Part shown: piece by piece, positions 34,698 through 39,347 of the stretch | Numbering within the stretch: the first letter of the stretch is position 1 | Layout of the letters: each line of letters begins with the position of its first letter | Assembly: GCA_938034615.1 (NCBI GenBank) | Contig: CALHLW010000187.1 | Location: 1-56,608 of the forward strand | DNA: 56,608 bases | Origin: an uncultured Neomegalonema sp. | GTDB taxonomy: Bacteria > Pseudomonadota > Alphaproteobacteria > Rhodobacterales > Rhodobacteraceae | Reading direction: 5' to 3' | Made by a program: the position numbers and the translations under genes | The notes under the pieces: generated by a model | Seen by the model: only the letters and a program-made list of their open reading frames with translations | Told to the model about the DNA's origin: nothing | Databases searched by the model: none

Positions 34698-36212
34698 ATG
34701 CTCGATCTCGCCTATTCCGAACCGACAGCTCCACGCCTGAAGGGCATGACCGGCGAGTGGGAGATGGTCATCGGGCTGGAGGTTCACGCGCAGGTGCGCT
34801 CGGAGGCCAAGCTGTTCTCCGGTGGGGCCAACGATTTTGGAGCCGAGCCGAACAGCAATGTCGCGTTGGTCGATGCGGCGATGCCGGGGATGTTGCCGGT
34901 TATCAATGAGTATTGCGTCGAACAGGCGGTACGGACGGGGCTGGGGCTGAAGGCGCAAATCCATCTGCGCTCGGTCTTCGATCGCAAGAACTACTTCTAT
35001 CCCGATCTGCCGCAAGGCTACCAGATCAGCCAGTTCAAAGACCCTATCGTCGGCGAGGGCGAGGTGCTGGTGCATCTGGAACCCGGTGTCGCGCGGCGGG
35101 TGCGGATCGAGCGTATCCATCTCGAACAGGATGCAGGGAAATCCATCCATGACATGGACCCGGAAATGTCCTTCGTGGATCTCAATCGCACCGGCGTGGC
35201 TCTGATGGAGATTGTCTCGCGGCCCGACATAAGGGGGCCTGAAGAGGCGGCGGAATATGTGCGGAAACTGCGTCAGATCATGCGGTATCTCGGAACGTGT
35301 GACGGAGAGATGCAGGAGGGGAGCCTGCGCGCGGATGTGAACGTCTCGGTCTGTCGCCCCGGTGACTACGAGAAATACTTCGAGACGCAGGATTTCTCGC
35401 ATCTCGGCACACGCTGCGAGATCAAGAACATGAACTCGATGCGCTTCATCCAGCAGGCCATCGAATACGAAGCGCGTCGCCAGATCGAGATCATCGAGGA
35501 TGGCGGCACCATCGATCAGGAAACGCGGCTGTTCGACCCCAAGAAGGGCGAGACCCGCACCATGCGCTCAAAGGAAGAGGCGCATGATTACCGGTATTTC
35601 CCGTGCCCCGACCTGCTGCCGCTGGAGATCGAACAGGGGTGGGTGGATGATATCGCGGGGGCTTTGCCCGAACTGCCCGACGAGAAGCGCGCGCGGTTCA
35701 TGGGCGACTATGGGGTGACGGAATACGATGCTGCCGTGCTGTCGGCGGCGCGGGAGGATGCGGATTTCTTTGAGGCTGTGGCCAAGGGCCGCGACGGGAA
35801 GACGTCGGCGAACTGGGTGGTGAACGAGCTGTTCGGGCGGTTGAACAAGGACGGGCTGGGGGTGGGCGACAGCCCGGTTTCGGCGGATCAGCTTGGCGGG
35901 GTCATCGACCTGATCGCTTCGGGGGACATCTCTGGCAAGATCGCGAAAGACCTGTTCGAGATCGTGTGGTCGGAGGGTGGCGACCCGGCGGAGATCGTGG
36001 AATCGCGCGGGATGCGTCAGGTGACGGATACCGGAGCCATCGATGCGGCAGTCGACGAGATCATCGCCGCCAACCCCGAGAAAGTCGCCCAGGCGCAGGA
36101 AAAACCGTCCATGGCAGGCTGGTTCGTGGGCCAGGTGATGAAGGCCACGGGCGGCAAGGCCAATCCGCAGGCCGTGCAGGCGGCGGTGAAGGCGAAGCTG
36201 GGGCTCGGTTAA
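34698..36212 (+). CDS. gatB: Aspartyl/glutamyl-tRNA(Asn/Gln) amidotransferase subunit B
   Basis: [65 protein letters not shown]-terminal Yqey-like tail. Confidence 0.97.
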
Positions 36213-36276
36213 CCTCTCCCTTGGGAGAGGTCGGAAGCCGCAACGCGGCTTTCGGGCTGTGCCCGCAGGGTGAGGG
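36213..36276. repeat. Intergenic element made of three consecutive perfect hairpins
   Basis: CCTCTCCC-TT-GGGAGAGG (36213-36230), AAGCCGC-AAC-GCGGCTT (36235-36251), CGGGC-TGT-GCCCG (36253-36265), then AGGGTGAGG that can re-pair with the first arm. Confidence 0.75.
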
Positions 36277-36281
36277 TATTC

Positions 36282-36443
36282 TTACCGCCGCAACACCAGC
36301 AGCAGATAACACCCGAACACCGCCCAATCCTTCATATCCTTCGGCAAGCCCAGACATCCCGCGAGCGTGGCGGCAGCGAGCAGGCCATAGGCGGCACGAT
36401 GGCCGGTCAGGGCCACGAGAACGATCAACAGCATCTTGGTCAT
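36282..36443 (-). CDS. Small hydrophobic protein of 53 aa (putative membrane protein)
   Basis: Reverse reading ATG 36443 to TAA 36282: MTKMLLIVLVALTGHRAAYGLLAAATLAGCLGLPKDMKDWAVFGCYLLLVLRR; GGAAAG ribosome-binding-like sequence 7 nt upstream. Confidence 0.45.
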   Translation of the reverse strand: MTKMLLIVLVALTGHRAAYGLLAAATLAGCLGLPKDMKDWAVFGCYLLLVLRR

Positions 36444-36470
36444 GGTTCAACTTTCCGTATAGGTTGAACC
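36444..36470. promoter_or_regulatory. Perfect 8-bp inverted repeat, candidate operator
   Basis: GGTTCAAC-N11-GTTGAACC between the small membrane ORF and the HTH-repeat gene. Confidence 0.5.
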
Positions 36471-36510
36471 GAAGCGCTCCGGCGTCCCGGTCGGGACCGG
36501 GGAAACATGC

Positions 36511-38241
36511 TTGGCGGGGGCGAGAAACGCAGTACGGGCAAGGTTGCCCGCGCCGGTTGGGCGGAAGTGGCGACGGAGTTGGGGAAAGTTGGCGGAAGAC
36601 AGTTTCGGCGCGGCCTTCGGGCGACTGGTAAAGCGAAAGCGGGCCGAACTCCGGCTCACGCAAGGCCAATTGGCCGAATCGGTCTGGCCGAACGACGAGA
36701 ATGCCGCCGAAAAACGAAAACCCGATATTTCCAAACTAGAAACCGGCAAGATCGCCAACCCCCACACCACAACCGTCCAGCGCATTGCCGACGTTCTTGA
36801 TGTTTCACCGCAGGAGATCGACGCCCTGCACCGACAGGCGCAGATGACCCCGGCGGAACAGCTCGACGCCGTGCCGACCCTCAGTCGCAACCAGCTCGAA
36901 CTTCTCGCCACCCGCTTCGAGATCGAGCGCGCCTTCGAGATGAGCGACCCGAAGCTGCGCCAACTCCTCAAAGGCAAGGCCGAGGAATACCGAACATATC
37001 GAGCGCAGTTCGATAACATCGAAAACTACCGAGCCAAGATGGAAAGCCTCGACGACCGCCTCCCCGCAATCCACAATCTGAAAGGGGCCGCGCAGGAGGC
37101 GGCGGGACGGCTCGATTTCGAGGAGGTCGAAACCCTCCTCTCCCGCGTGGACGAGGTCGAAACCGAGATCGCCGCCGAAACCAAGGAAACCCGCGCCCGC
37201 AACGCCCTGCTGCGCGGGCGGGTGGAACAGGCTTATACTCTCCTCACCGCCGCTGCGGATAGTTTTGCGAGTGTCGATCCGTTGGAAGTGGCAAGGCGGA
37301 AAGGCCGCTATGCGGAGCAACTTTACCATCACGGCCTGCGCTATGGTGGCACAGGCCTCGGACGAGCGGCAGATATGTGCCGAGCCGCATCGGGAATATT
37401 CACCGAGGCCGATCATCCGGTGCAATGGGCGACGGCGATGCAGAACCTCGCCCTTGCCCTTCGGGAGCAAGGCACGCGCACGGGCGGGGCCGAGGGGGCG
37501 GCGCTGCTAGCGGAGGCGGTGGAAAGCTACCGCGCGGCGCTGCGGGTCTTCACCGAGGCCGATCATCCGGTGCAACGGGCGATGACGATGCAGAACCTCG
37601 CAGTTGCTCTTCAGGAGCAAGGCACGCGCACGGGCGGGACCGAGGGGGCGGCGCTGCTGGGGGAGGCGGTGGAGAGCTATCGCGCGGCGCTGCGAGTGCT
37701 GACCGAGGCCGATCATCCGGTGGACTGGGCGATGACGATGCAGAACCTCGCCATTGCCCTTGAGATGCAAGGCACGCGAACGGGCGGGGCCGAGGGGGCG
37801 GCGCTGCTGGCGGAGGCGGTGGAAAGCTATCGCGCGGCGCTGCGGGTGCGGACCGAGGCCGATCATCCGGTGCAGTGGGGGATGACGATGCAGAACCTCG
37901 CTGGTGCCCTCCATACGCAGGGGACGCGCACGGGCGGGGCGGCGGGCGCGGCGCTGTTGGGGGAGGCGGTGGAGAGCTACCGTGCGGCGCTGCGGGTCAG
38001 TACCGAGGCCGATCACCCGGTGGACTGGGCGACGACGCGGTACAACATGGCATTGCTCGAAGAGTCCCGCGCCGATCACGACACCCGCACCGATCCGCGC
38101 CCGCATCTGGAGGCGGGGCTGGCGCATGTGATGGCGGCGCTGACCGTCTACGATCCCGAGCACATGCCCTACGATCACGGCACGGCCACCACATCACGCG
38201 CCCATCTCGCCGCGCGCCTTGCCGCTTTGCCGCCCGCGTGA
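36511..38241 (+). CDS. XRE-type HTH protein with C-terminal 50-aa TPR-like tandem repeats
   Basis: HTH region LVKRKRAELRLTQGQLAESVWPNDENAAEKRKPDISKLETGKIANPHTTTVQRIADVLDVSPQEI followed by five TEADHPVxWAxxMQNLAxAL...QGTRTGGAEGAALLAEAVESYRAALRV units; start is a TTG (36511) or an internal TTG near 36589. Confidence 0.8.
   Translation: MAGARNAVRARLPAPVGRKWRRSWGKLAEDSFGAAFGRLVKRKRAELRLTQGQLAESVWPNDENAAEKRKPDISKLETGKIANPHTTTVQRIADVLDVSPQEIDALHRQAQMTPAEQLDAVPTLSRNQLELLATRFEIERAFEMSDPKLRQLLKGKAEEYRTYRAQFDNIENYRAKMESLDDRLPAIHNLKGAAQEAAGRLDFEEVETLLSRVDEVETEIAAETKETRARNALLRGRVEQAYTLLTAAADSFASVDPLEVARRKGRYAEQLYHHGLRYGGTGLGRAADMCRAASGIFTEADHPVQWATAMQNLALALREQGTRTGGAEGAALLAEAVESYRAALRVFTEADHPVQRAMTMQNLAVALQEQGTRTGGTEGAALLGEAVESYRAALRVLTEADHPVDWAMTMQNLAIALEMQGTRTGGAEGAALLAEAVESYRAALRVRTEADHPVQWGMTMQNLAGALHTQGTRTGGAAGAALLGEAVESYRAALRVSTEADHPVDWATTRYNMALLEESRADHDTRTDPRPHLEAGLAHVMAALTVYDPEHMPYDHGTATTSRAHLAARLAALPPA
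37411..38040 (+). repeat. In-frame tandem repeat of exact 150-bp period within the HTH-repeat gene
   Basis: GATCAtCCGGTG-type word begins at 37411, 37561, 37711, 37861 and 38011 (GATCACCCGG in the last), spacing exactly 150 bp. Confidence 0.95.
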
Positions 38242-39347
38242 GTGGGTCGCTGGTCCTCGCGGGGGGCACGCCCGACCTTATCGCCATCGACGGGGGGCGG
38301 ATCGGGGCGGAGGCGGCAGGGCGCGTCATCGACGCCAGCGGCTTCCTCATCCTGCCCGGTATGGTGGACTTGCATGGGGATGCGTTCGAGCGGCATCTGG
38401 CGCCGCGTCGGGGCGCGTTGCGCAGTCGTGGCGATGGCTTGCGCGCGGCGGAGCAGGAATTGGCCACAAACGGGATCACGACAGCTTATCTGCCGCAGTT
38501 CTGGAGTTGGCAGGGCGGGATGCGCGGGCCGGATTTCGCGCGGCGGCTGTGTGCGGGCCTTGCCGGATATGACGGATTTCTCGATATGCGGGTGCAGTTG
38601 CGGCTGGACATCGCCTGTCATGCGGATGTCGATGCGGTGCGCGCGCTGATCGTCGAGCATGAGATCGATTACGTCGTTCTGAACGATCATTTGCCGCATG
38701 ATGCGCTCGCCGTCGGGAAACGTCCTCCGCGCCTCGATGGGCAGGCGTTCCGGGCGGGGCGGTCTGCGGCGGATCATCTGGCGCTGATGCAGCGGTTGCA
38801 CGAGGGGATGCCGGGAGCGCGCGAGCGGGTGGCTGATATGCTGCGCAGCTTGAACGGGGTGCGGGTCGGCAGTCATGACGATATGACACCCGAAGCGCGC
38901 GCGGGCAATCGCCGCTCGGGCGCAGGGATTGCGGAATTTCCGACGACGGAGGAGACGGTGCGGGCGGCGCGAGAGGCGGGGGATTCCATCGTGCTCGGTG
39001 CGCCGAATGTCGTGCGGGGCGGGTCGCATGACCGGGGCGTCTCGGCGCGGGAGATGGTGGCGGCAGGGCTGTGCGATGCGCTGGCGTCGGATTATCACTA
39101 TCCGTCGCTGCACCATGCGGCATTAGCGCTGGAGAGCGAGGGGCTTTCGCTGGCAGAGGCCTGGGCGCTGGTATCGGAGGCTCCTGCGGCGATGCTGGGT
39201 ATGGCGGATCGGGGGGTGATCGCGCCGGGTAAGCGGGCCGATCTCGTGGTGATGGACGAAGCGACGCGCCGCATCGTGGGGACGATGGCGAAAGGGCGGT
39301 TCGTTTATGTCACGGAACCGCTCGCGTCGCGCCTGCTCGCTGCATGA
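38238..39347 (+). CDS. phnM: PhnM-like alpha-D-ribose 1-methylphosphonate 5-triphosphate diphosphatase (amidohydrolase)
   Basis: GTG start overlapping the previous stop; ILPGMVDLHGDAFERHLAPRRG, IVEHEIDYVVLNDHLPHDA, SHDDMTPE, DALASDYHYPSLHHAAL, MADRGVIAPGKRADLVV. Confidence 0.85.
   Translation: MSGSLVLAGGTPDLIAIDGGRIGAEAAGRVIDASGFLILPGMVDLHGDAFERHLAPRRGALRSRGDGLRAAEQELATNGITTAYLPQFWSWQGGMRGPDFARRLCAGLAGYDGFLDMRVQLRLDIACHADVDAVRALIVEHEIDYVVLNDHLPHDALAVGKRPPRLDGQAFRAGRSAADHLALMQRLHEGMPGARERVADMLRSLNGVRVGSHDDMTPEARAGNRRSGAGIAEFPTTEETVRAAREAGDSIVLGAPNVVRGGSHDRGVSAREMVAAGLCDALASDYHYPSLHHAALALESEGLSLAEAWALVSEAPAAMLGMADRGVIAPGKRADLVVMDEATRRIVGTMAKGRFVYVTEPLASRLLAA

Follow-up and report, generated by a model that had tools for sequence, protein, structure and literature searches.

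A divergent gene pair with an inverted repeat between its members, in which a small hydrophobic ORF faces a gene for a helix-turn-helix (HTH) protein with 50-aa repeats, lies in a 56,608-nt stretch of DNA from an uncultured Neomegalonema sp. (the window; contig CALHLW010000187.1). Does it form a genuine regulatory module, and if so, through which sites and to what end? The layout set out in a preliminary description of this DNA was confirmed: the 53-aa ORF and the HTH/repeat gene are divergent, and the ORF starts at the base next to an exact 27-bp inverted repeat at 36444-36470. The features of the locus are as follows.

36282 to 36443, minus strand: gene for the 53-aa small membrane protein, with two hydrophobic helices, a short charged turn between them and a basic C-terminus
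36444 to 36470, minus strand: inverted repeat GGTTCAAC-N11-GTTGAACC, a probable mRNA stem-loop at the small-ORF start, abutting the AUG
36451 to 36456, minus strand: GGAAAG, ribosome-binding-like site of the small ORF, recognised from its sequence
36469 to 36482, no strand assigned: near-loopless palindrome CCGAAGCGCTCCGG with one mismatched pair (core AGCGCT, 36473-36478), a candidate operator
36484 to 36497, no strand assigned: a further small inverted repeat, GTCCCGGTCGGGAC, which the closest orthologue retains as GTCC-N6-GGAC; folded; not significant alone
36556 to 36597, plus strand: four direct repeats in helical phase, GTTGGGCGGAA / GTGGCGACGGA / GTTGGGGAAA / GTTGGCGGAA, a candidate operator array
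36589 to 38241, plus strand: HTH-TPR regulator, 550 aa from the probable start TTG 36589 (Pfam, AlphaFold2, Foldseek and the orthologue's upstream stops)

The gene pair and its distribution

A profile of the small protein matched an ORF at 33 of 42 distinct HTH-TPR genes, always divergent and 114-198 bp upstream of the HTH. Twelve hold-out HTH-TPR loci, fetched by the HTH query and unused in the profile, were then considered separately: ten of them have the ORF (L103, L104, L105, L107, L111, L112, L113, L114, L115 and L123), and the profile had no match at the other two, L116 and L120. Upstream of the HTH-TPR gene at 4959 in L116, from Sulfitobacter undariae, lies a small hydrophobic ORF on the same strand, not a divergent one (MSLIVIVSWLNVIGG...). 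When the search was reversed and run on 397 genomes of the family, 24 of the 25 small-protein matches at E<=1e-5 adjoined an HTH regulator, the remaining one lying on a short contig. The dN/dS ratio of the small ORF was ~0.1 and ~0.3 in the two closest pairs, and more distant pairs showed the same synonymous excess; judged by such comparison, the 53-aa ORF is a real protein-coding gene.

Many Rhodobacteraceae genera carry the module, whose named relatives are Rhodobacteraceae or unclassified alphaproteobacteria. At E<=1e-4 the small-protein profile gave no match in other alphaproteobacterial families, though small ORFs of the same architecture occur there: at least three of these families keep a divergent small hydrophobic ORF (L157-L159), together with a 14-bp palindrome in two and clear phased TGCGG repeats in two. 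On this comparative evidence the two-gene module is conserved and recurrent across alphaproteobacteria. The suggestion of a new regulatory module in the preliminary description was thus borne out, the HTH-repeat protein, the small membrane ORF and the cis elements co-occurring across many genera.

The most common recurrent neighbour was gatB (10 of 24 loci), followed by other flanking chromosomal genes; with neighbours of this kind, a third conserved gene of the module was rejected. As read from gene order, the window module is an insertion beside gatB. Three genomes of the same genus, G009, G004 and G010, have phnM immediately after gatB, the site being empty when compared with the window; G012 stands in the same relation to G005, the genome that holds the closest orthologue. 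A phage or plasmid origin was rejected, since searches of phages and viral contigs gave no match to the module and a single plasmid carried an HTH-TPR gene, near curli genes and with no recognised small ORF upstream. At the far side of the insertion, a phnM-like gene (38238-39347) overlaps the HTH-TPR stop codon (GTGA), and the inserted module may therefore be translationally coupled to it. Directly after gatB lies a hairpin-rich element (36210-36277; CCTCTCCCTTGGGAGAGG...), present once in the genome, on which an Rfam scan placed its sole match, a sub-threshold one to whalefall-1 RNA (24.5 bits vs a gathering threshold of 37).

In the regulator, HTH_31 and HTH_3 scored above the Pfam cut-off and TPR_12/TPR_10 below it; Pfam found no NTPase domain in this protein. 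Its start was moved from 36511 to TTG 36589, which is probably the correct one, because the closest orthologue (from G005, an uncultured Neomegalonema of the same genus) has stop codons in frame upstream of the HTH. An AlphaFold2 model built with 15 orthologues as input (mean pLDDT 92) is all-helical, with the HTH at residues ~10-80, a helical linker at ~88-225 and about six TPR-like 50-aa helical hairpins reaching residue 546. The top Foldseek matches in the PDB were two TPR domains, those of LGN and of kinesin light chain, both of which take extended peptides as ligands. NprR (5dbk) was a weak structural match (E=2.3e-3; TM-score 0.39 by target), ranked below many unrelated TPR proteins.

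Other arrangements of these domains were seen. Relatives with linker and TPR and lacking the HTH occur in the same family; one is a paralogue in the window's own genome (L040 4748-6895, contig C177), a TPR protein with a hydrophobic N-terminal region, and another, elsewhere in the family, lies near gatB (L050). In L107 (4983-8153) the HTH homologue is lengthened to 1057 aa, of which Pfam recognised the HTH alone. In L120 and L124 (Limimaricola plasmid NZ_CP139692.1) the HTH-TPR gene adjoins a response regulator, and L124 also holds curli csg genes. The upstream regions of these two genes contain no recognisable small ORF, so that this type of regulator may serve other targets as well.

The small-protein family (18 sequences) has a basic N-terminus, a helix rich in small residues, a short turn that is often DK, and a second helix. 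Both helices are conserved, and no variable C-terminal mature peptide following a signal was found among the 18 sequences. The predicted structure is helical, at moderate confidence (pLDDT 67). There was no significant match in Pfam, PHROGs or NCBIfam, a holin-like Pfam match falling below significance.

These properties bear on a kinship hinted at in the preliminary description, namely with the RRNPP(A) regulators of Firmicutes (Rap, Rgg, NprR, PlcR, PrgX and AimR), which likewise combine an N-terminal XRE HTH (Rap excepted) with a C-terminal TPR domain and have a small ORF adjacent. Were the module to work in that way, the small ORF would encode a pro-pheromone, and the TPR domain would bind the product of its processing; the TPR grooves of the closest folds are indeed of a kind that binds peptides. 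Here, however, the small ORF encodes a two-helix membrane protein conserved over its full length, and not a cleavable propeptide ending in a variable mature peptide; the host is an alphaproteobacterium, the genes are divergent, a phased direct-repeat array is present, and NprR is but a weak structural match. Membership in RRNPP(A) was rejected, as the layouts are alike and two defining features are missing (a propeptide with a variable mature peptide, and residence in Firmicutes and their mobile elements), and RRNPP-like peptide sensing seems to us very improbable.

Control elements between the two genes

The repeat GGTTCAAC-N11-GTTGAACC is the sole perfect copy in the 3.75-Mb genome. The window as a whole contains 34 inverted repeats with arms >=8 bp and loops of 4-20 nt, vs 27 expected under a dinucleotide model; by length alone the 27-bp repeat is unremarkable, and its support comes from related loci. 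These have a covarying stem at the position of the repeat, with loops of 9-24 nt that span the ribosome-binding region. In relatives with the stem, the upstream arm lies just past the palindrome and its partner arm before the first codons or, often, within them. Pairing averaged 5.8 bp between the arms of a locus and 4.9 bp when arms were swapped among loci. The stem is clear in about a third of 29 loci and not clear in any of the rest. When single sequences were folded as RNA, no structure reached significance. In relatives with an identified start, a purine-rich site occupies the position of GGAAAG, such a site having been part of the selection of starts. As to the window's own GGAAAG, the preliminary placement in the repeat holds for GGAAA, which is inside the 11-nt loop; the final G is in an arm.

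The preliminary description had proposed the 27-bp repeat as an operator. Perfect 8-bp arms within a control region would suit a site bound by a dimer. In the relatives, however, the covarying arms are set 9-24 nt apart with the ribosome-binding region between them, and the downstream arm is often in coding sequence; the count of 34 such repeats in the window against 27 expected also speaks against this reading. Given the variable loop length and the enclosed start region, an mRNA stem is favoured over a dimer operator. It is therefore probable that the repeat forms a hairpin in the mRNA at the ribosome-binding site of the small ORF, and we hold it very doubtful that it serves as a dimer operator.

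The preliminary description had overlooked the palindrome at 36469-36482 and, further along, the direct repeats at 36556-36597, both of them conserved. The centre of the palindrome CCGAAGCGCTCCGG is 32 nt from the small-ORF start in the window and 27-34 nt from it in most relatives, its sequence varying between lineages; the closest orthologue has a perfect 14-bp palindrome, CCGGAGCGCTCCGG. Averaged over loci, the best palindrome measured 10.2 bp, vs 7.1 bp in shuffled sequence. At nine loci (0.26 expected) the palindrome lies inside a promoter-like TTGANC-N15-19-TAnnnT directed at the HTH-TPR gene, and in about a quarter of the relatives it is found between a good -35 and a good -10 of the HTH-TPR promoter. 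The -10-like element of the nine promoter-positive relatives is absent from the window, and no promoter of the small ORF was located.

The direct repeats belong to a wider pattern. Over the 73 bp before the HTH, the upstream regions of 42 HTH-TPR genes show a periodicity of 10-11 bp, the match at lag 10 being 0.355 vs 0.272 after shuffling and 0.267 in 164 control regions upstream of neighbouring genes. The repeat unit changes by lineage (GTTGTGGAA, GTTAGAG, TGCGG, AGGACA, TGACCG) and the 10-11 bp spacing is kept. In the window, the repeats are borderline by themselves (P ~0.05), and the array overlaps the HTH-TPR start codon. All the statistics on palindrome, periodicity and stem use related loci, and their independence and significance are overstated for that reason. 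With respect to XRE-family autoregulators, the protein has a Cro/C1-type HTH, and the operator-like palindrome and repeats conserved in the sequence comparison are putative sites for it. As operator candidates, the palindrome next to the 27-bp repeat and the phased direct repeats look better than that repeat itself.

Sensor exchange and a model for the module

In one relative (L162 4000-6537, genome G175) the small protein is divergent from a gene whose 750-aa product combines a weak HTH with an nSTAND_NTPase5 domain (E=1.6e-10). TTGC repeats phased at 10-11 bp precede the HTH-STAND gene, and its product is without TPR repeats. A search for further HTH-STAND partners left L162 as the sole case. 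Since the small protein is paired with an HTH-STAND protein in this relative, it is probably the part of the module that stays constant, as its output, while the sensor varies.

The same locus bears on whether the small membrane protein might instead be a partner of the sensor, an anti-regulator that holds the HTH-TPR protein at the membrane or inhibits it there. The near one-to-one co-occurrence, the divergent layout and a TPR groove of the peptide-binding type would all fit such a role. Against it, the small protein also pairs with the HTH-STAND protein, which has no TPR repeats, and no small-protein match was found in genomes with only HTH-less TPR relatives; the small protein therefore follows the HTH and not the groove. 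We regard the anti-regulator role as unlikely.

Comparison of loci brings out the pairing of the genes, the coding status of the small ORF, the palindrome, the phased repeats, the covarying stem and one replacement of TPR by a STAND NTPase. The model that we favour, and judge on balance to be probable, adds to these a DNA-binding activity, a direction of control, a ligand and an action at the membrane, all of which we infer: transcription of a membrane-active small protein would be controlled by an autoregulating regulator that senses a ligand, and an RNA hairpin would act as a further brake. The HTH-TPR protein, probably as a head-to-tail oligomer, would bind the phased 10-11 bp repeats at the start codon of its own gene, perhaps along with the palindrome, and its occupancy would set the expression of both divergent genes. 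Repression of the small ORF by the HTH protein, and ligand sensing by it, as supposed in the preliminary description, are likewise inferred. The mRNA hairpin at the ribosome-binding region would further hold down translation of the small protein. A cue, peptide or protein and derived from the cell or from a phage, would lodge in the TPR groove and change occupancy of the array, whereupon the small protein would be made. This hairpin-shaped protein would be the output, acting in the inner membrane and most likely perturbing it.

A sharper form of the same model makes the small protein a membrane-depolarising toxin, in an abortive-infection or toxin-antitoxin-like module whose HTH sensor releases it on phage or stress signals. 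It seems conceivable, from a small hydrophobic hairpin with basic ends, a patchy distribution with empty sites, the exchange of the sensor for a STAND NTPase, of a class often met in immunity, and the want of a third conserved gene. The small-ORF start region is, moreover, within a putative hairpin, as is the case for many small membrane toxins. Type I toxins such as Hok and TisB, and the 2-TM pore effectors of conflict systems, resemble the module in being small hydrophobic hairpin proteins, with a probably structured mRNA start; unlike them, the small protein would be under an HTH sensor protein, and no homology was found. Also against the toxin are the absence of the module from phages and viral contigs (the one plasmid match lacking the small ORF), the non-significance of the holin-like Pfam match and the absence of a PADLOC match. 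PADLOC 2.0 matched nothing beyond general models (HTH, control-protein or coiled-coil), and these weakly and in part; a known anti-phage defence system was rejected. We consider the toxin a possibility of less than even standing. Broader, and put forward tentatively, is the idea that the module belongs to a family acting in immunity or stress at the level of transcription: HTH proteins with interchangeable sensors (TPR arrays or STAND NTPases) would oligomerise on helically phased repeats and thereby turn on an unvarying two-helix membrane effector that is gated by RNA.

Related systems and significance

The coupling of a TPR or STAND sensor to an output is shared with STAND/NLR-type sensors that have a C-terminal TPR, such as MalT, Avs and LypB of Caulobacter. 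MalT also binds repeated sites. The window protein differs from these sensors in having no NTPase and in carrying the HTH within the sensor itself, with a separate small protein as output, STAND being present in one relative (L162). LypB belongs to an alphaproteobacterial (Caulobacter) system controlled by an XRE regulator (PMC13236601), in which CdxB/XRE represses lypABC, a TPR-STAND cell-lysis/immunity operon (PMC13236601). As an XRE-family regulator in an alphaproteobacterium, CdxB with lypABC is the nearest analogy within the same bacterial class. CdxB, at 132 aa, consists of an HTH and a putative dimerisation domain only; it has no TPR, and no divergent small ORF is described for it (PMC13236601).

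No description of the module was found in the literature covered, most subscription papers and preprints being outside that coverage. The recurrent two-gene module and its small membrane protein family are unnamed in the family libraries searched. If the small protein is a membrane effector, the module would constitute a compact sensor-to-effector circuit, controlled at both transcription and translation, with a natural exchange of a TPR sensor for a STAND NTPase.
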